From Muribaculaceae bacterium (GTDB lineage Bacteria > Bacteroidota > Bacteroidia > Bacteroidales > Muribaculaceae): a stretch of DNA of 64,000 nucleotides. The notes beneath the pieces were generated by a model, which worked only from the letters and a program-made list of their open reading frames with translations, was not told the DNA's origin and searched no databases. Below, one piece after another: positions 8,124 to 51,428 of the stretch. A program made the translations under genes and the position numbers. How positions within the stretch are numbered: the stretch's first letter is position 1; each line of letters starts with the position of its first letter. The stretch spans positions 50,604 to 114,603 of the forward strand of contig JAFYYG010000037.1 of NCBI GenBank assembly GCA_017557625.1. The letters run 5' to 3'.

Positions 8124-8127
8124 TTTT

Positions 8128-8817: not shown

Positions 8818-8964
8818 ACTAGTTTCTTCGCATTATCATCAAACAAACTCAACAAAAAAGGACAAATCCAACAATAATAATTGCTTTGGGGGGGTACTAG
8901 TCGTTTTTGTCAGGTTTTGTTGTTTTTGTTTGATAAGAGTTACATCGCTGAATAGTTGTTTCAT

Positions 8965-9869: not shown

Positions 9870-10040
9870 ATATATTTTTCTTAATCAACACACATTTAAC
9901 AGACTTAACTTATCAACAACCTTTATGATATTTTGCAACAATCACCAGAACTATGCTATTATGTTTATATTAATCCAAGAATTTGAGATGTTTTTTACAA
10001 ATATAACATCTTCTTCAAGCCTATTCTCAACGATTTTTTG

Positions 10041-10048
10041 TAATTTTG
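10041..10048 (+). promoter_or_regulatory. -7 box for tsaB
   Basis: TAATTTTG followed by CAGC lies 20 nt upstream of the tsaB ATG and matches TAnnTTTG exactly. No -33 TTTG at the right distance is evident. Confidence 0.5.
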
Positions 10049-10067
10049 CAGCAACTTTTGAACGATT

Positions 10068-10757
10068 ATGGCAAATATTCTCAACATAGAGACTTCAACC
10101 ACAGTGTGTTCTGTTGCATTAAGCAGTGAGGGACAGATTGTTGACCATCACGAGAATTATGAAGGTCTGAACCATGCTACACTGTTGAGCCAGTTCATCG
10201 ATGATATGCTCTCAACCGCTAATCGAAAAGAAATGAAACTTGATGCCATTGCGGTGAGCATCGGACCAGGCTCATATACTGGTTTGCGAATAGGCTTGTC
10301 GCAGGCCAAAGGTTTGGCGTTCGGTATGGACTTGCCTCTGATTGGCGTGAACACACTGCAGTTGCTAGCTGTAACAGCGATGTTCAAGGAATTCTTCGAC
10401 GACGACACCCTTTACGTGCCCATGATAGACGCACGGCGTATGGAGGTTTATACTGCGGTCTATGACAGTTCTTTAGAAGCCATCGTGGTGCCACAAGCCA
10501 TGATTCTTGAAGGAGATTCATTTGCCGCACAGCTCGAAAAACATCATCTTGTGATGATAGGCAATGGTGCTATGAAAGCAAAGGAGATAATCAAGCATCC
10601 AAACGCCCGTTTCATGCCTGATGTCAAGCCTGTCGCAGTAGAGATGATGGCACTATCGGAGAAAGCGTTCAGAGAGAAGCATTTCGTTGATGTGGCCTAT
10701 TCAACACCCCTCTATCTTAAAGACTTCCAAGCCACAGTCCCCAAATCGCTTATCTAA
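10068..10757 (+). CDS. tsaB: tRNA threonylcarbamoyladenosine biosynthesis protein TsaB
   Basis: This 229-residue protein of the ASKHA fold is the TsaB partner of TsaD in N6-threonylcarbamoylation of A37 in ANN-decoding tRNAs. The N terminus ILNIETSTTVCSVAL and the segment VSIGPGSYTGLRIGLSQAKG (about residues 63-82) are diagnostic. Like other TsaB proteins it lacks the HxxxH metal motif of TsaD. It has its own -7 box and is divergent from yicC. Downstream begins a heptamer-rich spacer leading to DUF4290. Confidence 0.95.
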   Translation: MANILNIETSTTVCSVALSSEGQIVDHHENYEGLNHATLLSQFIDDMLSTANRKEMKLDAIAVSIGPGSYTGLRIGLSQAKGLAFGMDLPLIGVNTLQLLAVTAMFKEFFDDDTLYVPMIDARRMEVYTAVYDSSLEAIVVPQAMILEGDSFAAQLEKHHLVMIGNGAMKAKEIIKHPNARFMPDVKPVAVEMMALSEKAFREKHFVDVAYSTPLYLKDFQATVPKSLI

Positions 10758-10786
10758 CTTGGTTATTGGCTATCAGTTCTCTGCTT

Positions 10787-10828
10787 GTTAACTAAAAACT
10801 GATAACCGATAACTGAAAACTGAAAACT
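10787..10828 (+). repeat. Heptamer array before DUF4290 gene
   Basis: Six in-phase heptamers: GTTAACT, AAAAACT, GATAACC, GATAACT, GAAAACT, GAAAACT. The array runs directly into TTTTTG and the -7 box TAACTTTG. The last 37 nt (10808-10844) recur with one mismatch before pheS (21449-21485). Confidence 0.75.
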
Positions 10829-10834
10829 TTTTTG

Positions 10835-10842
10835 TAACTTTG
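10835..10842 (+). promoter_or_regulatory. -7 box for DUF4290-rimM region
   Basis: TAACTTTG followed by CAAAA lies 24 nt before the ATG at 10867 and is immediately preceded by the heptamer array. Confidence 0.55.
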
Positions 10843-10866
10843 CAAAACATTTTTGATTGAAACAAT

Positions 10867-11463
10867 ATGCTTACATATAATTCACAACTCAAAAAACTGG
10901 CTCTTCCAGAGTATGGACGCAACATCCAGCAAATGGTGGACTACTGTTGCACTATCGAAGACCGCGAAGAGCGAAACAAGTGCGCCTACTCCATCATCAA
11001 TACGATGAGCAACCTGTTTCCACAACTCAAGCAAGAGACCGATTATCAACACAAGCTGTGGGACCATCTAGCGATAATGAGTGACTTCAAGCTCGACATC
11101 GACTACCCTTACGAGATAGTCAAGCCCGAAAACCTTGACACAAAGCCTGTGCCCATAAAATATAAGCACGAAGGCATCAAGATGCGTCATTACGGCAAAA
11201 TTGTTGACCAAATGATTGGTCGTGCCTGTGAGTACCCCGATGGCGATGAGAAAGAAGCTCTTGTGATGCTTATCGCCAATCACATGAAGAAGCTCATCTA
11301 TCAAATCAGCAATGAGGATGTTGAAGATGCCAAGATTTTCAAAGATTTGGAATATTTTTCTAAAGGACAGATAAAACTCGACCCTGCAACTCACTCACTT
11401 CACCAGTTTAAAGTTGCACCATCACAACAGGCCACATCGTCGAAAAAGAAAAAGAAGAAATGA
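10867..11463 (+). CDS. DUF4290 domain protein
   Basis: This 198-residue cytoplasmic protein begins MLTYNSQLKKLALPEYGRN, which I recall as the conserved N terminus of the Bacteroidetes DUF4290 family. It also has the segment IKYKHEGIKMRHYGK near residue 97 and a Lys-rich tail of seven consecutive Lys at the extreme C terminus. No function is established. The tail could bind RNA or ribosome, which would suit its position just upstream of rimM, but this is speculation. An 89-nt spacer of heptamer-like repeats separates it from rimM. Confidence 0.8.
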   Translation: MLTYNSQLKKLALPEYGRNIQQMVDYCCTIEDREERNKCAYSIINTMSNLFPQLKQETDYQHKLWDHLAIMSDFKLDIDYPYEIVKPENLDTKPVPIKYKHEGIKMRHYGKIVDQMIGRACEYPDGDEKEALVMLIANHMKKLIYQISNEDVEDAKIFKDLEYFSKGQIKLDPATHSLHQFKVAPSQQATSSKKKKKK

Positions 11464-11470
11464 TAATTTA

Positions 11471-11552
11471 GTGGAGAGTGGAGAGATTATAGTGCCATTC
11501 ATTCCACTAATGTCTTCCATAAACGATAAACGATAAAACGAAGCAAGTCACA
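11471..11552 (+). repeat. Heptamer-rich spacer before rimM
   Basis: The spacer starts with GTGGAGA, GTGGAGA, GATTATA, GTGCCAT in 7-nt phase (11471-11498). It ends with CATAAAC, GATAAAC, GATAAAA, then after one extra base GAAGCAA, GTCACAA, which abuts the rimM ATG. The same order (GTGGAGA-type units first, GATAAAC units last) appears in the spacer before proS. Confidence 0.65.
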
Positions 11553-12074
11553 ATGATTACCAGCGATGAAATAATCGCCATAGGCAAGTTCAACAAACCA
11601 CATGGCATCAGCGGGGAGATTTCGGCAACGATTAACACCCTTACGGATGTGTTGAACAATTGTTCTTGCATTGTGTGTGACATTGATGGGATTTTTGTTC
11701 CTTTCTTTATTAAGGCTTTGCGAAACAAGTCACAAGAGACGTTTCTACTTTCCATTGACGACATCAATAGCGACGAAGAAGCTGCGATACTGGTAAATAA
11801 AGACATCTATGTGAAACGCAGTGAGTATTACGAAGTCATTGAAGACGAAGACAGAATTCCTCTAGACTTCTTTATGAATTTCAACGCTATTGTAAACGAA
11901 ATTAATGGCAAAATCGTGGATATTGATGACTCTACTGCCAACGTCCTGTTTGTTATCGAAACCACCGACGGGAAATCAATCCTCATTCCGGCTGTGGAAG
12001 AGTTCATAACCGATTTTGACAGCAAAGAAAGAACAATAAAAATGGAGGTCCCCGATGAACTCCTTAATCTATAG
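11553..12074 (+). CDS. rimM: Ribosome maturation factor RimM
   Basis: This 173-residue protein has the two RimM beta-barrels. The N-terminal motif IAIGKFNKPHGISGE (residues 8-22) is diagnostic, and the C-terminal PRC-like barrel ends with ILIPAVEEFITDFD and the residues before MEVPDELL. RimM assists 30S head assembly, binding S19. The sequence is A/T-rich relative to its neighbours but the motifs are intact. It is flanked by heptamer-containing spacers on both sides. Confidence 0.92.
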   Translation: MITSDEIIAIGKFNKPHGISGEISATINTLTDVLNNCSCIVCDIDGIFVPFFIKALRNKSQETFLLSIDDINSDEEAAILVNKDIYVKRSEYYEVIEDEDRIPLDFFMNFNAIVNEINGKIVDIDDSTANVLFVIETTDGKSILIPAVEEFITDFDSKERTIKMEVPDELLNL

Positions 12075-12109
12075 CTATAAGCAGAAAATAAAAATGTAGA
12101 ACAGCTCCC

Positions 12110-12150
12110 GATAAACGATAAACGAACAACGATAAACGAAACCAGATGAT
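12110..12150 (+). repeat. Heptamer array before the OmpA-type gene
   Basis: In exact phase: GATAAAC, GATAAAC, GAACAAC, GATAAAC, GAAACCA, then GATGAT directly joined to the ATG at 12151. All units start with GA. Confidence 0.75.
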
Positions 12151-12768
12151 ATGAACAAATTTTTTAATTACATTAAAGCAATCACTCTGATGATTGCCTC
12201 CGTATGCAGCTTATCGATGATTGCGCAAGTCAACAACTATCGTAGTCTTGATGAGGCCATCAACTCGCCAATGATAAAAGACAATAAAGTGCGCAATGCG
12301 GTTAGTGCCTATCAGACTAGGCTTGTCAACGATCTGGCCGATGATTATAATGTCAACTTAATTAGAAATGATGAAGTTATCGTTATCACTATTCCTGCAG
12401 ATTTGTTTTTTGAGGCTAATGCAACAGAACTAAGCCGCAAAGCCGATGACATACTCTATAAAATTACACAATTCCTTAAAGTTCCGGGATTCTATCATCT
12501 TGCTCTTGCTATGTATCATGACAACACTGGTTCGCCACGCTACTGCAAAGAGTTGACCGACAAGCGAATACAAAGCATTGTTGAGTGGTTTACCATAAAC
12601 ACCAACAGCCGACAATACATTTCGTCATTCTCCTTTGGCGATAAAGACCCTATACTTGAGAACAACTCAATGAATAACCGCCGAATGAACCGTAGACTTG
12701 TCATCTACCTAATCCCGGACAACGTCATGTTTGACAATGCGAAAAGAAATCTTTTGAATAAAAGATAG
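12151..12768 (+). CDS. Exported OmpA family protein
   Basis: This 205-residue protein has an N-terminal signal peptide (hydrophobic core about residues 9-24, ending SMIAQ). The second half is an OmpA-like peptidoglycan-binding domain: the beta-strand start IPADLFFEANATELS near residue 75 and the closing NNRRMNRRLVIYL near residue 180, where Asn and Arg contact meso-diaminopimelate in the family. There is no N-terminal beta-barrel, so it is a periplasmic peptidoglycan-associated protein rather than a porin. It sits between rimM and proS, with heptamer arrays on both sides. Confidence 0.82.
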   Translation: MNKFFNYIKAITLMIASVCSLSMIAQVNNYRSLDEAINSPMIKDNKVRNAVSAYQTRLVNDLADDYNVNLIRNDEVIVITIPADLFFEANATELSRKADDILYKITQFLKVPGFYHLALAMYHDNTGSPRYCKELTDKRIQSIVEWFTINTNSRQYISSFSFGDKDPILENNSMNNRRMNRRLVIYLIPDNVMFDNAKRNLLNKR

Positions 12769-12769
12769 A

Positions 12770-12888
12770 GTAGAGAGGGAAGAGGTGAGAGTGGAGAGAT
12801 AATCAATGTACGATGCTCGTTCCACGATCCCCGGTCTCCGATCCCCGATTCCCGATCTCCGATCCACGATAAACGATAAACGATAAAC
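12770..12888 (+). repeat. Array of 17 consecutive degenerate heptamers before proS
   Basis: From the second base after the stop codon the spacer reads in unbroken 7-nt phase: GTAGAGA, GGGAAGA, GGTGAGA, GTGGAGA, GATAATC, AATGTAC, GATGCTC, GTTCCAC, GATCCCC, GGTCTCC, GATCCCC, GATTCCC, GATCTCC, GATCCAC, then GATAAAC three times. Sixteen of 17 units begin with G. Composition shifts from purine-rich through C-rich to A-rich towards the proS start at 12909. Confidence 0.85.
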
Positions 12889-12908
12889 AAAATATAATCA
12901 ATAAAAAA

Positions 12909-14390
12909 ATGGCTATTGAAATTAAAGACTTAACAAAACGGAGCGTAAACTACTCACAGTGGTATAACGACTTGGTGATAAAAGCCGACCTCGCAGAGCA
13001 GTCGGCGGTGAGAGGCTGCATGGTGATAAAACCTTACGGATATGCCATCTGGGAGAAAATGCAACGACAACTTGACGACATGTTTAAGGAAACTGGAGTG
13101 CAGAACGCCTATTTTCCTCTACTTATCCCAAAATCATTCCTCAGCCGCGAAGCAGAGCATGTAGAAGGTTTTGCTAAGGAGTGTGCTGTGGTCACACATC
13201 ATCGTCTCATGAATGCCCCCGATGGCAGCGGTGTGGTTGTAGATCCTGAGGCTCGACTTGAGGAAGAACTCATCATCCGTCCCACTAGTGAGACCATTAT
13301 ATGGAACACTTACCGCAACTGGATTAGTTCTTATCGCGACCTGCCACTGCTCATTAACCAATGGGCTAACGTAATGCGGTGGGAGATGCGCACACGCATG
13401 TTCCTGCGAACCGCCGAGTTCTTGTGGCAAGAGGGCCATACTGCTCACGCCACAAAGGAGGAAGCACAAGCCGAAGCCATTCAAATGCTCAACGTATATG
13501 CCGACTTTGCCGAGAAATATATGGCAGTACCTGTTGTCAAGGGAGTGAAAACCGCCAACGAGCGCTTTGCCGGCGCTCTTGAGACCTACACCATCGAGGC
13601 TATGATGCAGGACGGCAAGGCTCTGCAGTCTGGAACATCCCACTTCCTGGGACAGAACTTCGCCAAGGCCTTTGACGTGAAGTTTGTCAATAATGAGAAC
13701 AAGCTCGACTATGTATGGGCAACTTCTTGGGGTGTTTCAACTCGCCTTATGGGAGCACTCATCATGACTCACAGCGATGACAACGGCCTGGTTCTTCCAC
13801 CTAAGTTGGCACCCATTCAGGTTGTTATTGTTCCTATCTACAAGAACCAGGAACAACTCGACGAGATTAACGCCAAGGTCAACCCCATTGTGGAGAATCT
13901 ACGCGCTATGGGCATCTCGGTGAAGTATGACAACGCCGACAACAAGCGTCCTGGCTTTAAGTTTGCCGACTACGAGCTCAAGGGAGTTCCTGTAAGACTT
14001 GTGCTCGGTGCCCGTGATATCGCCAACGGCACTATCGAAGTGATGCGTCGCGACACGCTCGAGAAATCCAGCGCCTCGCTTGATGGTATCGAAGATACTG
14101 TAAAAGGTCTTCTCGATGAGATTCAAGACAATATCTTCAAGAAAGCTCTTGACCTCCGCAATGAAATGACTTATAAGGTTGACAACTACGAAGACTTCAA
14201 GCAGCAAATCGAGAAAGGTGGCTTTGTCCTTGCTCACTGGGACGGAACTCCCGAGACCGAAGACCGAATCAAGGAGGAGACAAAGGCTACAATCCGTTGC
14301 ATACCTCTCGATGCAGAGGAAGAAGATGGCGTGGACATGCTTACAGGCAAGCCATCAAAACGCAGAGTAATCTTCGCACGCAACTACTAA
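12909..14390 (+). CDS. proS: Proline--tRNA ligase
   Basis: This 493-residue class II synthetase is of the short archaeal/eukaryotic-like (ProS type 3) form, lacking the editing insertion of E. coli ProRS. Visible motifs are [10 protein letters not shown] (motif 1/2 region, residue ~119), [19 protein letters not shown] (motif 2, from residue ~157), the Pro-site segment and [19 protein letters not shown] (motif 3, residue ~277). The anticodon-binding domain starts [10 protein letters not shown], and the C-terminal extra domain ends in RRVIFARNY. It charges tRNAPro in the cytoplasm. The leader is the 17-heptamer array. Confidence 0.96.
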
Positions 14391-14413
14391 TTCTTTATTG
14401 CATACAAAAATCC

Positions 14414-14568
14414 ACAAGGTGTGTCAAAAATAAAAACAACTGATTTTTCTGATTAATCTGATTATTTGCAAATTTTTCAAAAATCTGTCAATCAAGACAT
14501 TGAGAGATCAGAACATTCAGACAATTCAGTTGTTTAAATTTTATTCTGCATTTTGACACACCCCTTGT
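14414..14568. mobile_element. MITE-like element with imperfect terminal inverted repeats
   Basis: The left end reads ACAAGGTGTGTCAAAA then ATAAAAACAACTGA (14414-14443). The right end, reverse-complemented, reads ACAAGGGGTGTGTCAAAA then, after a short insertion, AATAAAATTTAAACAACTGA (14568-14524). The 155-nt element has no coding capacity, and its A/T-rich interior contains smaller dyads. Its right end lies inside the broken small-protein gene (14569-14727), whose frame runs into it and stops. No clear target-site duplication is visible. A folded terminator for proS is a simpler alternative. Confidence 0.5.
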
Positions 14569-14735
14569 TATTTTCAGCTCTCCAACCTGGAACACGCAGC
14601 CGTCAATCGTCACCTTGCCAGGGGTCTTGATGGCAAAGGTAGCCCCATTCTCGACAATGAAACCTTCTCCCAGATGTACGTCATCTGTGGCCTCTACCTC
14701 ATAGACTGCACCGTTCTTTATGGTCACATTGCCAT
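14488..14735 (-). pseudogene. Truncated copy of the small exported protein at 16230
   Basis: The frame, read on the minus strand from the stop of the dockerin gene, gives LNGNVTIKNGAVYEVEATDD, then a 25-residue stretch identical to residues 27-51 of the protein at 16230-16484, then runs into the inverted-repeat element at GELKITRG and stops at 14488. It has no ATG (only a GTG at 14725-14727), no signal peptide and a foreign C terminus. I therefore call it a remnant. The 75 shared nucleotides (14587-14661 against 16335-16409) differ at seven positions, all synonymous. Confidence 0.6.
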
Positions 14736-16166
14736 TTAATTTCCCAAAAGATAATTGTAAACAGAAGTAATGTCGGCACTGGTGACTGCGCCATCGCCAT
14801 CCACGTCATAGGAAGCTGGTGCTTCGTTGATGTTTCCAAGCAAGAAGTCATAAAGTGCTGTTACATCGGCCGAGGTGATGTCGCCATCACCGTTCACATC
14901 TTCTTTCTTATGCTTCAACTGTTGAGCCACATCATACATGCAACCTTTATACACCAGCTCGCCGTTCTCATATACCGCCGAGAGGCCTGCCATTTTCTCG
15001 CCGGCGCCTGAGTTGGCATCAGCGGAGAATAGCCGGTAAGGCATCAGCAGGTCGCCGAAGGCGCAGTCAACGCCTATTCCCTCGATGATCTTGAAATCGT
15101 CAACAAATGGGATCGCGCCGTCACATGTTATTTGATATGTTTTCCTGAATGTCCCTGCAATTTCAAGGTCTATCATCGTGGCGTTATCCAGATTATATGG
15201 GTATGGATATGTAGGATAAGAAGGTGGTATTATGAACATCGGGGCATAGAAGTGGTAAACTCTATCGGTGGGGACCTCGAACCCCGGCCAATAGTTCACA
15301 CCTATAGCATCGACTTGCTCGTATTTCTCCTTTGCGTAGGCGGCAAGGTAAGGCTCTTGAGCATTTCCTTGCTCATCATAGTTGGTGCGGTAAAGATTAT
15401 GATACACATAAGTCCAGCCGACATTATCGGTTATCTCGGTAGTCCCGTTAAACTCCAGAGTATATAGCTCTACTTCCTCGCCCGCTACAGGACCAAGGAC
15501 ACTGTTGTAACCTACATACTCCCACACCACTCCCTCGCGCACCAGAGGAACGTAGTCATCCTTTGTGAAATCATCCTTTGTGAAGATTATATCTCCGTTC
15601 TCGCTGCACGAGAGCATGACGCATGGACCGATGTCGCCGGTTTGCCCTCCTAGCCAAAAATTATTGTTAACACCAACTCCTTCAACTACGTAGTAATTAT
15701 AATCATATTCGACATCTTCATAGTCAGTTGTTATCATAATTCGTTTTCTACTCACACCATTCACTCTGACAAAGTCCTCAACAATAACATAACTAACAAA
15801 AAAATCATCCCATAGATGAAGCCCGATATCAAACAGCAGTTCCATCTCTCCATTTTCTCTAACATTCCACACTTTGCCGTTTTCCTCATATGCAACAGCA
15901 GTCTTTGAGCTTTTCTGGCTGTCTTCGGAAACAATTAAAATCTTCTTGCAGGTGAGATTGTTGATGATAGTGTCACCAGAGACAGAAAGGATGTAAGTGT
16001 TTATTGTATCCGTTGTTCCAGGCCTTACTCTTGCCACTTCCCACGACTTGCCTTCAGTCAGCACAGGCTTGAACGTTGATTGACCAAACAACCAAAGAGG
16101 AAACATCGCTAGGGCCATCATTAACGCTTGCTTGTAACCCAGCATTAGGAAAAACATCTTTTTCAT
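14736..16166 (-). CDS. Exported protein with C-terminal dockerin-like EF-hand pair
   Basis: This 476-residue protein has a signal peptide (hydrophobic to about residue 29, MFPLWLFGQ). Two related beta-rich segments follow, one with WEVARVRPG near residue 43 and one with VVWEYVGYN near residue 213. Each ends in a similar motif, VVEGVGVN and IIEGIGVD, suggesting an internal duplication. The last 55 residues carry two dockerin type I-like calcium loops, DVNGDGDITSADVTALYDFL and DVDGDGAVTSADITSVYNYL, ending at the stop. No catalytic motif is recognised. A consensus promoter (16198-16228) lies upstream. The gene is flanked by intact and broken copies of the small secreted protein. Confidence 0.7.
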   Translation of the reverse strand: MKKMFFLMLGYKQALMMALAMFPLWLFGQSTFKPVLTEGKSWEVARVRPGTTDTINTYILSVSGDTIINNLTCKKILIVSEDSQKSSKTAVAYEENGKVWNVRENGEMELLFDIGLHLWDDFFVSYVIVEDFVRVNGVSRKRIMITTDYEDVEYDYNYYVVEGVGVNNNFWLGGQTGDIGPCVMLSCSENGDIIFTKDDFTKDDYVPLVREGVVWEYVGYNSVLGPVAGEEVELYTLEFNGTTEITDNVGWTYVYHNLYRTNYDEQGNAQEPYLAAYAKEKYEQVDAIGVNYWPGFEVPTDRVYHFYAPMFIIPPSYPTYPYPYNLDNATMIDLEIAGTFRKTYQITCDGAIPFVDDFKIIEGIGVDCAFGDLLMPYRLFSADANSGAGEKMAGLSAVYENGELVYKGCMYDVAQQLKHKKEDVNGDGDITSADVTALYDFLLGNINEAPASYDVDGDGAVTSADITSVYNYLLGN

Positions 16167-16229: not shown

Positions 16230-16484
16230 TTATTCGTCAACATATTGCGTAAATTCCACCTTTGAGCCTAGCTCGGCGGTGAATTTACCCACAAATTCAA
16301 CATTTCCAGCCTCTATCTTGACCTTGGCACCGCCCTGGAACACACAGCCGTCAATTGTAACCTTACCTGGGGTTTTAATGGCAAAGGTAGCCCCATTCTC
16401 GACAATGAATTCTCTGTCATTTCTGCTGTTAGCAAATGATGTCAATGCAAATAATGCAAACAGTAAGAATACAGTTTTTCTCAT
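16230..16484 (-). CDS. Small exported protein, coat-hanger-stack-like repeat
   Basis: This 84-residue protein has a clear signal peptide (MRKTVFLLFALFALTSFANS). Its mature part is a short beta-strand repeat: FIVENGATFAIKT, VTIDGCVFQGG, VKIEAGNVEFVG, FTAELGSKVEF. This rhythm resembles the small coat-hanger or beta-solenoid modules found in large Bacteroidetes surface proteins, but here it stands alone. Function is unknown. A 25-residue block (27-51) is copied exactly in the broken gene at 14488-14735. The spacer upstream to 16672 is A/T-rich and holds a near-match -7 (GAACTTTG on the minus strand around 16515). Confidence 0.6.
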   Translation of the reverse strand: MRKTVFLLFALFALTSFANSRNDREFIVENGATFAIKTPGKVTIDGCVFQGGAKVKIEAGNVEFVGKFTAELGSKVEFTQYVDE

Positions 16485-24747: not shown

Positions 24748-26592
24748 CTAAAACATTTTTGCCATTTGGTCTAAGGTGAGGATGTTGGCAATAAGTTTTC
24801 CTGAGGGGGTGTATTTGGCGTTTTTCAGTTTGCGCCAGTCAGTGATTAGGGATTTTATCTCTTGCTCGTTAAGTTGGCGGTTGTAAGGTATGGCGGCTTT
24901 TGAGGCTATTGTGATGGCAATTTTCTCAAACACCTTGTCTTTAACGCTCACGCCGTTCACTGAGGCCAGCACCTCATTGAGCAGTTCGATTATATCAACA
25001 TTGTCAAGCCCTGGAGGCACCGAGTTTATTGACCAATCGCCGCCGCTAAGTTTTGCAAGTCCAAACCCTGCTTTCTCAAGTTCGGGCTCAATTTCCTCAA
25101 ATACTGCATTCTGCGCGACAGTCAGATGCACAATCTCAGGGAAAAGCACCCGCTGCGACACCACATTCATGCCGTCAATCTGCTGCATCAATCTTTCATA
25201 TATAACCGCCAGATGTGCACGGTGCTGGTCAAGAATCACAATCCCCTCTTGTGAGAGAGTGAGCAGATAGCGGTTGCCAAGCTGCATCACACCCTGAATC
25301 TCGTCGTCAACCTCAACAATTTTGTTTTCTACAGCCGCATCATCGGCCATCATTGGCAACTCCCCTATCTCGTCAAGTCCCTCTTGCTTTGACTTCTCGA
25401 AGTTCTTATAGAGTTCTTCCCAATTAGGCAGAATGTCGTGATGCGATGATGGAGTATAACCGCCACCATGCGAACTAGACTGCTGTTTAAAAGGATTATA
25501 GCTCTTGTCAACAGCGATATCAGGCATTTTTGACGTGTGAGGCAAAGTGAAAGAAGGAATCTCGGGAGCATCTTCCTTGTCGAAGTCGATAGACGGCACA
25601 ACGCTGAAACGTCCCAGCGTCTCCTTGACAGCAGCAGAAATAATCTGCCAAATCGGCAACTCATTCTCAAATTTTATCTCGGTCTTAGTGGGATGAATGT
25701 TGACATCAATCGTCTCTGGGTCAACATCCAAGACCAAGAAATATTTGGGCTGAGAGTCATCGGGAATAAGTTCATCATAGCACGAAAGCACCGCCTTATG
25801 GAAATAAGGATGCCGCATATATCTGCCATTGACAAAGAAATACTGCATTGCATTGCGCTTGCGGGCGCTCTCGGGTTTGCCGATGAAGCCTGAAATTTTC
25901 ACCAACGATGTGTCAACATTCAATGGAATGAGCTGCTGGTCAATGTTATGGCCAAAGAGGGCTATGATGCGCTGCTTCAATGTTCCACCACTGAGTTTGT
26001 AGAGCATATTGCCATTGTGAGTGACAGTGAAATCAATAGTGTAATTGACGAGTGCCAGTTTCTCAAATTCCTTGATGATATTACTCAATTCCACTTGATT
26101 ACTCTTCAAGAACTTGCGACGAGCAGGGACATTGAAGAACAAGTCTTTAATCATGAAATTGCAGCCGACAGGACATACGTCAGGCTCCTGCGACTCACAT
26201 TGCGAAGCGTTTATCAACAGTTTGGTACCCAGCTGCGCTCCTCGGGCACAGGTGCGAAGTTCGATATGAGATATTGCGGCTATCGATGCTAGTGCCTCTC
26301 CACGGAACCCCATGGTCTGCAGCGAAAACAAGTCATCAGCCTGACGAATCTTTGACGTGCTGTGACGCTCAAAAGCCAATCGGGCATCAGTGTCGCTCAT
26401 GCCCACACCATTGTCTATCACTTGAATCAAGGTGCGACCAGCATCCTTAAGAATTATCTGAATACTTGTTGCCTGTGCATCAACAGCATTCTCCACCAGC
26501 TCCTTTATTACCGATGCGGGGCGTTGAATCACCTCACCAGCTGCAATCTGGTTGGCGACAGAGTCGGGCAAAAGTTTTATCACATCACTCAT
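24748..26592 (-). CDS. mutL: DNA mismatch repair protein MutL
   Basis: This 614-residue GHKL ATPase starts IKLLPDSVANQIAAGEVIQRP, with ATP-binding motifs ELVENAVDA, DNGVGM and TMGFRGEALASI. The C-terminal dimerisation domain shows LDQHRAHLAVIYERL where nuclease-active MutL proteins have DQHA-x2-E-x4-E. The first Glu is Leu here, and the ACKAAV-type motif reads ASKAAI, so the intrinsic endonuclease looks degraded. MutL couples MutS recognition to excision. In its own orientation the leader holds six heptamers (26602-26643). It is the last gene of the OM-biogenesis run (PPIase, PPIase, OstA-like, MutL), an order I recall as common in Bacteroidales. Confidence 0.93.
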   Translation of the reverse strand: MSDVIKLLPDSVANQIAAGEVIQRPASVIKELVENAVDAQATSIQIILKDAGRTLIQVIDNGVGMSDTDARLAFERHSTSKIRQADDLFSLQTMGFRGEALASIAAISHIELRTCARGAQLGTKLLINASQCESQEPDVCPVGCNFMIKDLFFNVPARRKFLKSNQVELSNIIKEFEKLALVNYTIDFTVTHNGNMLYKLSGGTLKQRIIALFGHNIDQQLIPLNVDTSLVKISGFIGKPESARKRNAMQYFFVNGRYMRHPYFHKAVLSCYDELIPDDSQPKYFLVLDVDPETIDVNIHPTKTEIKFENELPIWQIISAAVKETLGRFSVVPSIDFDKEDAPEIPSFTLPHTSKMPDIAVDKSYNPFKQQSSSHGGGYTPSSHHDILPNWEELYKNFEKSKQEGLDEIGELPMMADDAAVENKIVEVDDEIQGVMQLGNRYLLTLSQEGIVILDQHRAHLAVIYERLMQQIDGMNVVSQRVLFPEIVHLTVAQNAVFEEIEPELEKAGFGLAKLSGGDWSINSVPPGLDNVDIIELLNEVLASVNGVSVKDKVFEKIAITIASKAAIPYNRQLNEQEIKSLITDWRKLKNAKYTPSGKLIANILTLDQMAKMF

Positions 26593-26601
26593 AGTTTCTT
26601 C

Positions 26602-26643
26602 AGTTGTCAGTTGTCAGTTGTCAGTTGTCAGTTTTGAGTTTTC
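26602..26643 (-). repeat. Heptamer array before mutL
   Basis: On the minus strand, six units in phase: GAAAACT, CAAAACT, then GACAACT four times. GAAGAAACT and the mutL ATG follow. It has the same AACT-ending consensus and orientation as the arrays before nadD, pheS and tadA. Confidence 0.8.
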
Positions 26644-26697
26644 AGATGTCTAATTTCCCATTCCACTTTTTACTTTCCACGCGCTGAAGGCGCTCTC

Positions 26698-36602: not shown

Positions 36603-36671
36603 AATTAGTATATTAAAATTTAAAAATTATAGGTATGTGCAGCACATTCTCACACCTCTATCTTCCAAAAC

Positions 36672-36699
36672 GATAAATCATAAACGAAAAACGAATCTC
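36672..36699 (+). repeat. Heptamer units after the BspA-type gene
   Basis: On the plus strand in phase: GATAAAT, CATAAAC, GAAAAAC, GAATCTC. Unlike the other arrays, this one points against the neighbouring minus-strand gene, whose stop codon overlaps its edge. Confidence 0.5.
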
Positions 36700-38740
36700 A
36701 CTCTCCCAAAAGCATATTGTAGATAGCTGTTATGTCGGAGGCTGTGATATTGCCGTCGCCGTTGATGTCGCTAGTGGCGATATGAGTTTGGTCATTATTA
36801 AGCAGGTAGTTGTAAATTGCCGTCACATCGGCAGTGGTAACATTTCCATCAAGGTCCACATCACCATCCATGAGTTCCTTCACTGTTCCAAACGCCAACC
36901 AAGGATTAGGCTTGTTGTTGTACGTTGACTGCCGATATTTGCCGGCAGAGCCTTTGGGCACATACAGGATGCTTGATTCTGGGATGCCAGTGAACACACG
37001 GTTGTTGGTTGAAGTATGAGTGTAAGTGACGCTTTGTGGATTTTCTATCTTAGATACTGCCACAGCAAGACTGCTGCAACCATTAAATGCCCAATTCTCA
37101 ATCTTATTCACCGAGCTGGGAATTGATACATAAGCCAAATTAGTGCAATATTCAAAAGGTGCAACACCGATGGTTGTCACCGAATTAGGGATAGAGACAG
37201 ACGTCAAGCCGGTACAGTCTCTAAATGTATAATAATCAATAGTAGACACTGAATTTGAAATTGTTAGCGATGTCAAACCACTACAACGAATAAATGCTTG
37301 TTTTCCTATTTTAGTAACCGAATTGGGTATCGTCATTGATGTCAAGCCAACACAATCACTAAAGGCACTTTCCCCAATTTCGGTTACCGTACTGGGAAAT
37401 TCGATACCCGTTAAGCTAACGCAACCTGAGAAAGCGCCATTTCCAATAATTGTGAGAGTATTAGGGAAGGTCACCGAGGTTAAACTACTGCAACCATAAA
37501 AGGCATTGTAGTCAATTTTTGTCACTGAATTAGGGATGATCACAGATGTCAAACCAGTGCAGAATTCAAAGACTCTGATGCCAATCGAAGTGACAGAATT
37601 GGATATAGACACTGAAGTCAAACCAGTGCAGCTTTCAAAGGCACTCCCGCCAAGACTTGTCACAGAATTAGGGATGCTCATAGATGAAATACTTGTACAT
37701 CCTTCAAAAGCATTGTTACCAATCGAGGTCACCGAGCTGGGGATAGTAACCGAGGTTAAACTAGTGCACTCAGCAAAAGTGTAATCGTCAATTTTGGTAA
37801 TAGAATTAGGGAGAGTCAACGAAGTCAAGCCACTGCAAGCATAGAAAGCATAGTCACCTATCGATGTCACCGAGTTGGGAATGGTAATTGATATTAGAGT
37901 GGAGTGTTCATAAAATGCGCCTCCACCAATCGAGGTCACCGAATTTGGGATAACCGAGGTCTTACAACCACACATAAGAGTATTGGTCGAAGTTTCGATG
38001 ATAGCATTGCAATTATTTCTGGAATCATATTTTGGATTTCCATTAGCAACACTGATTTTTGTCAAACCGGTGCAACCACTGAAAGATGTGCTATTAATTG
38101 TTGTCACTGTGCTTGGGATTGTCAATGTTTTAAGGGCGCTACAACCTCTAAAGGCATGCCAGTAGATTTCTTTCACCGAACTGGGAAAAGATATCGAGGC
38201 TAAACTTGTGCAACCATCGAAAACATAGCTGTTAATCTCTTCCAAAGTGTTTGATAGGGTCACCGAAATCAAGCCACTGCAACCCCTAAAGGCTGAACTG
38301 CCAATACTATTAACAGAATTAGGGATAGTCAAAGATGAAAGGCCTGTACAACCATTAAAGGCATCATTGCCAATCTCATTCACCGAGTTGGGAATCGTAA
38401 TCGATGGTAGGTTGGTGCAGTAAGCAAAAGAATATCCGCCAATCACTTTCACCGAGTTGGGGATGGTTATCGATGTCAGATTTGTGCAGCCATTGAAAGC
38501 ATTGCCGCCAATAGAGGTCACCGTATAGGTGGTACCATTATAAGTGACACTGGATGGAATGGTCACCGAACCACTAAGATTGGTGTAACTGGGATTAGAA
38601 TAGCTCTCATAAGTCACCGCCACGCTTGTGTTGTCACTGTTTATTTTATAACACAAGCCATTGACCATAAAGTCGTAAGCACTTGCTGGCATCACTACAC
38701 TCACTACCAGCAGAAGTAGGCATATCAATCGAGTTTTCAT
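36698..38740 (-). CDS. Secreted BspA-type leucine-rich repeat protein with C-terminal dockerin-like module
   Basis: This 680-residue protein has a signal peptide (MKTRLICLLLLVVSVVMPASA) and about 22 tandem TpLRR/BspA repeats of 23 residues. The typical unit is LTSVTIPNSVTSIGDYAFYGC with small changes, spanning residues 60-590. The last ~55 residues hold two EF-hand-like loops, DVDLDGNVTTADVTAIYNYL and DINGDGNITASDITAIYNML, of dockerin type. BspA-like repeats mediate adhesion to host proteins and other bacteria in oral Bacteroidales and treponemes; here the ligand is unknown. The gene has its own -7 box and terminator and lies between tig and clpP, normally adjacent, which suggests insertion. 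Confidence 0.88.
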   Translation of the reverse strand: MKTRLICLLLLVVSVVMPASAYDFMVNGLCYKINSDNTSVAVTYESYSNPSYTNLSGSVTIPSSVTYNGTTYTVTSIGGNAFNGCTNLTSITIPNSVKVIGGYSFAYCTNLPSITIPNSVNEIGNDAFNGCTGLSSLTIPNSVNSIGSSAFRGCSGLISVTLSNTLEEINSYVFDGCTSLASISFPSSVKEIYWHAFRGCSALKTLTIPSTVTTINSTSFSGCTGLTKISVANGNPKYDSRNNCNAIIETSTNTLMCGCKTSVIPNSVTSIGGGAFYEHSTLISITIPNSVTSIGDYAFYACSGLTSLTLPNSITKIDDYTFAECTSLTSVTIPSSVTSIGNNAFEGCTSISSMSIPNSVTSLGGSAFESCTGLTSVSISNSVTSIGIRVFEFCTGLTSVIIPNSVTKIDYNAFYGCSSLTSVTFPNTLTIIGNGAFSGCVSLTGIEFPSTVTEIGESAFSDCVGLTSMTIPNSVTKIGKQAFIRCSGLTSLTISNSVSTIDYYTFRDCTGLTSVSIPNSVTTIGVAPFEYCTNLAYVSIPSSVNKIENWAFNGCSSLAVAVSKIENPQSVTYTHTSTNNRVFTGIPESSILYVPKGSAGKYRQSTYNNKPNPWLAFGTVKELMDGDVDLDGNVTTADVTAIYNYLLNNDQTHIATSDINGDGNITASDITAIYNMLLGE

Positions 38741-50166: not shown

Positions 50167-51327
50167 ATGAGATACCTATTTTCATTTTTGACAGCAATCA
50201 TAAGTATTAGCGCCTGTGCAGGTACTTTTGTTAGTGGCGGCATAGTGTATAGCTTTACTGACAACTTCCGCGAAGTAGCTGTGGACCAAAACATTGTCGA
50301 TGGCATTAATGCCTATGAGGGCATTTATATAATTCCCAGTGTAGTGAACTATGAAGGCGAGAACTACCTAGTCACCGCCATTACCGAGAGTGCATTTGCT
50401 CACTCAAAGGTCACTGAGGTTGTTATCCCCAATTCGGTGACTCGTATCGAAGAAAATGCTTTTGCCTTTGCCACCGAGTTGACAGATGTGACATTGCCGC
50501 TTGAGTTGACCGCGATTCCCGACTACTGCTTCACTGGCACAGGCATAGTCAATATCGTTTTGCCAGAAGGCATACAAGATGTGGGAGTTGGTGCTTTTAA
50601 AGACTGCGCAATGCTTCATACCGTGATGCTGCCTTCTTCACTGAAGTATATCGATGATTTTGCTTTTGACGGGTGTCACAATCTCTATGAGATGTACTGC
50701 GCCGCCACCGAAGCGCCTATCACCTTAGGCGACAACACCTTTGGCGGGTTGCAAAACGTGGACCTCGTTGTCACAGATGACGAGACCATCGATTCTTACA
50801 CCGACGACACAATGTGGGGCAACGACGACACCTTCACACTATTCCCTAACGAGGACTTCTACCCCACTATGGAATTTAACGGCGAGACATTCAACCAAGA
50901 CTGGAAGAAAATCACTTTGGGCAACAACCTCGCCTATAAAATTTATGACGAGAACGACGAATTGGTGGCAGTGACTTCAGCAAGCCACTTTTACCTCCTT
51001 GCAAAGGACCACGACACCGATTATACCATAGTACCTACGACATTGATGTTTGACAGCGATCCATTTACTGTCACGGTTGACAAGACAACCGGCATCGAGC
51101 AATTCATTGATAACGCGTTTCCCGCTGAGCCAGAGCCTATCATTGTGGCACATTATGGCACAATATATATCTATGGGGACACATACAAGCGTTGGACCTA
51201 CGTCTGGGATATATACGGCCGACTTTATTATCAGCGCATCTCAAGCGACGCACAAGTCATTGACCTACCTCGCAATAGGGTGTATGTCGTGAAAGTGGGT
51301 AATTACGTCAAGAAAATATTTGTTTAA
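50167..51327 (+). CDS. Secreted BspA-type LRR protein with T9SS-like C-terminal tail
   Basis: This 386-residue protein has a signal peptide (MRYLFSFLTAIISISACA). About four or five BspA-type leucine-rich repeats lie between residues 55 and 190 (VTEVVIPNSVTRIEENAFAF and similar), followed by a beta-rich middle (EFNGETFNQDWKKITLGN). The tail is WDIYGRLYYQRI then VIDLPRNRVYVVKVGNYVKK IFV. Its G-R, I-D-L and Y-V-V-K-V-G pattern resembles the type A sorting domain used by the type IX secretion system. It has no dockerin-like module, unlike the LRR protein at 36698. Role probably adhesive; the ligand is unknown. Confidence 0.78.
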   Translation: MRYLFSFLTAIISISACAGTFVSGGIVYSFTDNFREVAVDQNIVDGINAYEGIYIIPSVVNYEGENYLVTAITESAFAHSKVTEVVIPNSVTRIEENAFAFATELTDVTLPLELTAIPDYCFTGTGIVNIVLPEGIQDVGVGAFKDCAMLHTVMLPSSLKYIDDFAFDGCHNLYEMYCAATEAPITLGDNTFGGLQNVDLVVTDDETIDSYTDDTMWGNDDTFTLFPNEDFYPTMEFNGETFNQDWKKITLGNNLAYKIYDENDELVAVTSASHFYLLAKDHDTDYTIVPTTLMFDSDPFTVTVDKTTGIEQFIDNAFPAEPEPIIVAHYGTIYIYGDTYKRWTYVWDIYGRLYYQRISSDAQVIDLPRNRVYVVKVGNYVKKIFV

Positions 51328-51428
51328 GTGTTAAGTGTAAAGTTTTAAGTGTTAAATGAAGTCACTAACGCGACTAACTAACTGCTGACAACTGACAGCT
51401 GACAACTGATAACTGGCAACTGATAACT
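51328..51428 (+). repeat. Two heptamer arrays filling the spacer before tadA
   Basis: Right after the stop codon: GTGTTAA, GTGTAAA, GTTTTAA, GTGTTAA (51328-51355). After 31 irregular bases: GACAACT, GACAGCT, GACAACT, GATAACT, GGCAACT, GATAACT (51387-51428), followed by AA and the tadA ATG at 51431. Confidence 0.82.

Follow-up and report, generated by a model that had tools for sequence, protein, structure and literature searches.

Between an OmpA-family protein gene (ompA) and the prolyl-tRNA synthetase gene proS of a Muribaculaceae bacterium lie 119 nucleotides that can be read as 17 consecutive heptamers, which raises the question of what kind of sequence fills this gap and how it came to be there. 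Partition of the spacer within the analyzed stretch of 64,000 nucleotides (hereafter, the window; Table 1) confirmed what had been noted from the letters alone: 16 of the 17 units start with G, and the final three are all GATAAAC. Identity between bases spaced 7 nt apart (lag-7 identity) was 0.69 across the array, with 0.66 at lag 14 and 0.59 at lag 21, compared to 0.15-0.31 at the remaining lags between 1 and 24. For the whole 140-nt spacer (12769-12908), lag-7 identity was 0.67 (z = 10.3), a value that none of 2,000 dinucleotide shuffles reached, and a separate run with 300 dinucleotide shuffles gave z = 9.0.

The array is a patchwork, with a periodicity that is uneven along its length. The gradual drift in unit content described by the earlier, sequence-only reading was resolved into a purine-rich arm (lag-7 identity 0.67), a C-rich arm, and a GATAAAC tail. 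The same reading regarded the array as uninterrupted, which holds for the array overall but less so for its middle, where lag-7 identity is just 0.52 and where AATGTAC, the sole unit without an initial G, is located. Within the C-rich arm, lag-21 identity (0.86) exceeds lag-7 identity (0.74), and a 21-nt period was also called for 12770-12888 by Tandem Repeats Finder. Exact GATNCCC accounts for 3 of the 17 units, two of which are adjacent, while the other units of this arm carry mismatches. Furthermore, while the partition begins just after the ompA stop codon, as had been proposed, the called periodic stretch starts earlier, at 12758 within the ompA ORF, and so includes the final 11 bases of that gene, TAG stop included.

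Table 1. Heptamer arrays, flanking genes, and related features in the window
Feature	Positions	Strand	Remarks
OmpA-family protein gene (ompA)	12151..12768	+	TAG stop inside periodic stretch
Spacer heptamer array	12770..12888	+	119 nt = 17 x 7 nt
Purine-rich heptamer arm	12770..12797	+	directly 3' of ompA stop; GTAGAGA GGGAAGA GGTGAGA GTGGAGA
Weakly periodic middle	12798..12825	+	holds most of imperfect predicted hairpin 12791-12825 (GTGGAG...TTCCAC)
C-rich arm, GATNCCC-like units	12826..12867	+	complement is of GGGNATC type; 21-nt block similarity
Three identical GATAAAC units	12868..12888	+	lag-7 identity 1.00; unit is the tail unit of the dispersed ~50-nt sequence
A/T-rich proS leader	12889..12908	+	resembles entire 16-18-nt spacer of relatives L100-L102 (by eye)
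proS, prolyl-tRNA synthetase	12909..14390	+	
GATAAAC array, rimM-ompA spacer	12109..12139	+	same gene row
Copy of dispersed ~50-nt sequence, DUF4290-rimM spacer	11481..11531	+	GAGATTGTAGTGCC..CACTGTCTTCC(ATAAACG)n
AACTGAT/AACTGAA array	10790..10828	+	upstream of DUF4290 gene
TCAGTTG array	26600..26676	+	AACTGAC in the sense of the - strand gene starting at 26592
Two arms in one spacer	51324..51428	+	TTAAGTG post-stop (51324-51358); CTGACAA/CTGATAA pre-start (51378-51428)

The sequence-only reading had considered the spacer to be neither a promoter nor a terminator, and our results agree on both counts. The ompA-proS spacer contains no TANNTTTG box, which we take to be the promoter motif, and its predicted RNA fold, including the imperfect hairpin, is no more stable than those of shuffled sequences (z = -0.19). 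As its fold does not surpass that of shuffles, the idea that the spacer works as a hairpin or terminator was dropped. A search of positions 10000-15000 against Rfam returned four matches (E up to 5), all of them far under gathering scores and none within the spacer.

The 7-nt periodicity extends well beyond this locus. Across 40 spacers of the window, which rest on hand-chosen genes, pooled lag-7 identity was 0.339 versus 0.290 (z = 8.4), the highest of lags 2-24 and followed by lag 3 (z = 5.9) and lag 21 (z = 5.7); individually, 7 of the 40 spacers exceeded z = 3 at lag 7. The genome-wide excess for which a check had been proposed was evident in a sample of 409,474 bases from the same genome, consisting of the window and 20 further stretches (one being a 1,846-base run of N, L030, the row of which is left out of the period-7 counts): 65 period-7 segments were found, compared to 0-10 for each of the periods 5, 6, 8-11, and 13, and period 14, as a multiple of 7, yielded 46. 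By the simple ORF-based gene set used, 53 of the period-7 segments fall between genes and the other 12 inside called ORFs. Eighteen other 20-kb stretches from the same genus contained 13 period-7 segments in 360 kb versus 12 at period 9, the latter count fitting an effect of codons, while 20 stretches from across the phylum (365 kb), seven of which come from genomes picked for repeats, contained 24 compared to 0-4 at periods 5, 6, 8-11, and 13. Compared with these counts, the genome under study is rich in period-7 segments, though not alone in having them. Exact AACTGATAACTGA, representing AACTGAT arrays, matched 28 times in this genome (reversed control, 0) and was present in 71 of 296 phylum genomes, the present one included.

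The orthologous ompA-proS spacer was then compared between relatives, as had also been proposed. An OmpA match was identified in 58 of the 61 genomes of the genus, and the best 30 loci, our own included, each yielded an ompA-proS spacer. In this comparison of one genome per species, both length and units differ between related species, with spacers of 6-51 nt in 22 genomes and of 73-200 nt in 8. Neither of the two outcomes named beforehand as refuting the sequence-only reading was observed. Lag-7 identity was significant in 7 of the 8 long spacers (at most 11 of 2,000 shuffles as high) and not significant in the one at locus L068 (110 of 2,000). GATNCCC/GATAAAC units occur in the spacers of our genome and of L050, while L061 carries TTAGGTA together with an inverted CCTAAAA arm, L065 carries TTAGATT, and L057 AACTAAA. 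In most of the related species examined, the array is therefore missing from the same gap or the gap is built of other repeats, i.e., its presence is species-specific. The ompA stop codon is TAG in 4 of the 8 long and in 0 of the 22 short spacers (p = 0.003), and in L061 and L065, the stop codon itself is the first TAG of the repeat.

The neighboring gaps of the gene row vary as well. Relatives L100-L103 have ompA-proS spacers of 16-26 nt, and in L102 and L103, the DUF4290-rimM, rimM-ompA, and ompA-proS gaps all measure 5-26 nt. As judged by eye, L099 has arrays in all three of these gaps, and L100 and L101 have one in the DUF4290-rimM gap only. In array-bearing spacers, the last bases before the start codon often look like the short spacer of relatives, the ompA-proS gap of L099, in which the repeats reach the start, being an exception (both by eye). 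The economical reading of these alignments is that the array would have been gained between the stop codon and the leader, and the majority of short spacers among relatives suggests that the short form is probably the older one, although arrays may instead have been lost in other lineages.

Where, then, might the units have come from? With 40 of 90 candidates scored, comparison of the spacer with its own genome gave at least 44 other places at E<=1; four of these span both arms. In the 20 sampled stretches, there was one match at E<=1e-6 (36 nt, 89% identity). Within a single genome, the unit families turn up at several unlinked spacers, and their distribution across the genus is uneven. CGATCCC dimers were detected in 5 of the 61 genomes (14 in our own, 33 in G042, 15 in G049, and 1 each in two others), as were TACTTCC dimers (33 in G042, 12 in G030, 11 in G010, and 1 each in two genomes including our own), while AACTGAY dimers occur in 42 of the 61, with 0-126 copies; reversed-pattern controls gave 0-4 per genome. 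Furthermore, alignment of the array units reveals a common AACTNWN-like core (4.13 bits compared to 3.21 +- 0.08 in the control), a signal that is also fed by the recurrent families. The earlier reading had attributed the array to repeated slippage or unit copying plus mutation. The 21-nt block similarity is in line with this, but slippage within the array gives an incomplete account, since the same units are present at unlinked sites and share a common core. Slippage that is purely local, starting from a chance seed and without exchange among loci, would explain the 21-nt similarity, the different units of orthologous spacers, and the scarcity of long identity between loci; we nonetheless regard it as quite improbable, given the recurrence of unit families at unlinked spacers and the absence of CGATCCC and TACTTCC from most of the 61 genomes.

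The GATAAAC tail links the array to a dispersed sequence of approximately 50 nt. Eighteen copies of the latter align as GAGATTGTAGTGCCNATAATCTCACCACTGTCTTCC(ATAAACG)n; this model used 18 of the 22 listed copies, which were drawn from 20 fetched loci (five per genome) plus L144 and L145, and it has no consensus base pairs. The 22-nt end ATRTCTTCCATAAACGATAAAC, with <=3 mismatches, matched 6 times in our genome (G000), 13 times in G001, 46 times in G042, and 75 times in G049 (reversed, 0), although some looser matches, e.g., the ones containing TCTTCG, may simply be heptamer arrays. Two spacers upstream of the array is one copy that was used to train the model (R1) and so matches it by construction; a weaker match is located at 36637-36677 (E = 4.7e-4). 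The array itself matches the model only over the GATAAAC units at its end (10.1 bits; E = 0.49 in a search of 840 kb).

This dispersal could indicate a nonautonomous mobile element that has heptamer arms and depends for its movement on a REP-associated (Y1) transposase or a comparable enzyme. Besides the matches to the ~50-nt sequence, the short palindromes adjoining some arrays point in this direction, as does the detection of Y1_Tnp matches in 55 of the 61 genomes, five of the other six having 0-1 AACTGAY dimers. However, the sixth, G052 (83% complete), has 56 such dimers, the correlation between Y1_Tnp and AACTGAY dimers across the 61 genomes is weak (rho = 0.23, p = 0.08), the array shares just the tail of the dispersed sequence, and arm junctions differ in length and phase. 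The single phase noted earlier holds for the present array but is not general, as the phase between purine-rich and C-rich arms took four values over the eight sites found. We thus consider such an element unlikely. A spread driven by RAYTs found no clear support in the correlation or in G052, and a fixed composite element was rejected, as junction phases vary and the ~50-nt sequence, lacking consensus pairs, meets the array only at the tail. REPIN/RAYT systems, as portrayed in excerpts of PMC3116915, likewise comprise small dispersed intergenic repeats, and palindromes stand beside some arrays here, but they differ from the present arrays with their variable junctions and lack of a clear Y1_Tnp association. 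Paired inverted palindromes with fixed ends, as in REPINs, were not found in the arm junctions or the dispersed ~50-nt sequence.

Other repeated sequences were encountered along the way. The perfect palindrome GCTGCGACNNNGTCGCAGC occurs at 7 sites of the genome (L104-L110; L042:8521-8539; reversed control, 0), and at four inspected sites, it lies near heptamer arrays. At L145 (G042), the spacers orthologous to those at 8124, 9892, and 11464 of the window are long composites of 261-432 nt, containing 8-nt arrays (ACGAGAGG type), a common core like AATAGTAGCCG, TACTTCC-type 7-nt arrays, and a GATAAAC-type tail. An intergenic sequence of approximately 145 bp at 14418-14563 is a dispersed repeat, with further copies in the same genome (L048, 81% over 142 nt; L031, 72% over 146 nt) and on other contigs of G001 (89%) and G042 (87%), and the intergenic region 8818-8964 has partial copies in the same genome (L029, L033, and L032) and in G001. 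Moreover, a 75-nt sequence occurs twice in the window (14587-14661 and 16335-16409; 91% identity), and a 69-nt repeat is present in two copies within one ORF at 38369-38512.

The placement of arrays relative to genes was assessed in a set of 69 arrays, obtained by lowering the score threshold and splitting more finely than for the 53 intergenic segments; 65 of them have both neighbors, and some share spacers, so that they are not independent. Arrays are anchored at stop codons, which 29 of the 65 touch compared to 16.5 +- 3.0 under random placement within the spacer (0 of 2,000 placements as high), while their edges are not enriched at start codons (16 versus 14.9 +- 2.9). Of 26 arrays that have a start codon as their nearest gene edge, 23 show A/C-richness on the sense strand; the median distance to the start is 5 nt. 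A general rule of G/T-rich arrays after stops and A/C-rich arrays before starts was rejected, as the post-stop counts were 17 versus 18 and the pre-start count is moderately above baseline. Among start-side arrays of >=27 nt, 14 of 24 have stops in all three frames, compared to 7.7 +- 2.0 for column-permuted units (3 of 1,000 as high), these cases being interdependent because units recur.

The A/C-richness before starts and the three-frame stops could reflect selection for function. Specifically, the arrays might act as regulatory elements that bind an RNA- or DNA-binding protein affecting downstream translation, a role suggested for TAACTGA repeats in Beggiatoaceae in the excerpted text of MacGregor 2015 (PMC4679880). 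Both features argue for this, but an A/C bias is common before starts without arrays as well (109 of 159 non-tied cases), array edges lack start enrichment, and 22 of the 30 same-genus genomes manage with 6-51 nt in front of proS, other species having arrays of other units there; we therefore judge a regulatory role to be rather unlikely.

How does the array relate to known repeats? The short tandemly repeated repetitive (STRR) sequences of cyanobacteria are heptanucleotide repeats of the same broad class. With a 7-nt tandem unit beyond chance and many, mainly intergenic loci, as in STRR and long simple sequence repeats (LSSR), the present array belongs to the heptanucleotide-repeat class. The sequence-only reading knew of no description of a drifting, spacer-filling heptamer class in Bacteroidales, but its suggestion of novelty is not supported. 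Intergenic heptanucleotide repeats form an established class in bacteria, and TAACTGA direct repeats are described in Beggiatoaceae, cyanobacteria, and five Bacteroidetes in the excerpts of MacGregor 2015 (PMC4679880). According to these excerpts, the repeats in the best-studied genome mostly lie just 5' of starts, and in two of the five Bacteroidetes, other heptamer repeats share the spacers, those of close relatives being shorter and without obvious repeats. They also state that related heptamers are seldom repeated in a Beggiatoaceae genome, and cite the suggestion that the 7-nt unit length stems from polymerase contact. Like these repeats, ours are intergenic heptamer tandem repeats, and the genome has AACTGAT arrays; in contrast, 12770-12888 contains no TAACTGA unit, and this genome is rich in several unit families.

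The GATNCCC units are not new either, being the complement of GGGNATC, which, with GGGGA(C/T)T, is reported as a heptamer repeat in Xanthomonas and Nostoc in excerpts of Rehm 2015 (PMC4692102). Shared with that class are the unit of the C-rich arm, the intergenic location near stops and starts, sometimes overlapping stops, as well as inverted pairs and length variation between species. The complementary unit and the location near stop and start codons would suit a G-quadruplex-forming repeat, but a quadruplex motif (four tracts of at least three G, 1-7-nt loops) is absent from both strands of the locus and from all 69 sampled arrays, and we regard this explanation as highly improbable. Furthermore, presence itself varies by species here, whereas the excerpted text reports that 90% of the Xcc repeats have the same flanking genes in Xac, and our array adds purine and GATAAAC units. 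Lacking both a TAACTGA unit and a quadruplex motif, the array misses the defining feature of each named subclass. Among long simple sequence repeats with units of 1-11 nt, heptanucleotides dominate in most genomes and slippage was proposed (Mrazek 2007, as cited in the excerpts of PMC4679880), while the excerpted text of Mrazek and Huang 2014 (PMC4060949) gives 4- to 11-mers as normally or weakly over-represented, heptamers not being singled out; unlike such repeats, the present array is degenerate and mosaic.

Taken together, we consider it probable that the array is filler that grew by slippage from seeds supplied by other parts of the genome and that selection keeps within the gap. The gap would probably have had tight operon spacing before the array grew as noncoding filler. 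AGTGGAG, GATNCCC, and GATAAAC units may have been seeded from other arrays of the genome by short-patch copying, e.g., template switching or gene conversion; with a single 36-nt match at the stricter threshold and variable arm junctions, we infer this route rather than observe it. The units would then have multiplied by slippage in steps of 7, 14, and 21 nt and subsequently mutated, and purifying selection may hold the array in its observed position, bounded by the stop codon on one side and the short leader of the following gene on the other. A specific regulatory function is not needed for this explanation, while a mild role, e.g., providing intergenic stops in all frames, is possible. Very unlikely, in our view, is a cellular process dedicated to synthesizing heptamer-periodic DNA and placing it next to stop codons; template-switching synthesis in 7-nt steps would yield products that share an AACT-like core, occur in spacers unrelated to one another, at times as mirrored arms, and arise anew, built of different units, both in orthologous gaps and in unrelated phyla.

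The array is ordinary in kind and unusual in degree. Searches of the open-licence PMC literature found multi-family heptamer arrays in Bacteroidales described only in the remarks of MacGregor, which is weak evidence of novelty. New here are the species-specific blooms of several unit families, the measured tendency of arrays to touch stop codons, and the dispersed sequence of ~50 nt with its GATAAAC tail. These findings bear on the question of why unrelated phyla accumulate 7-nt repeats that are similar in units and in their positions next to genes. The genus offers a natural experiment, with the same gaps with and without arrays, many related species, and different unit sets, in which the seeding, growth, and effect on expression of the arrays can be traced site by site.
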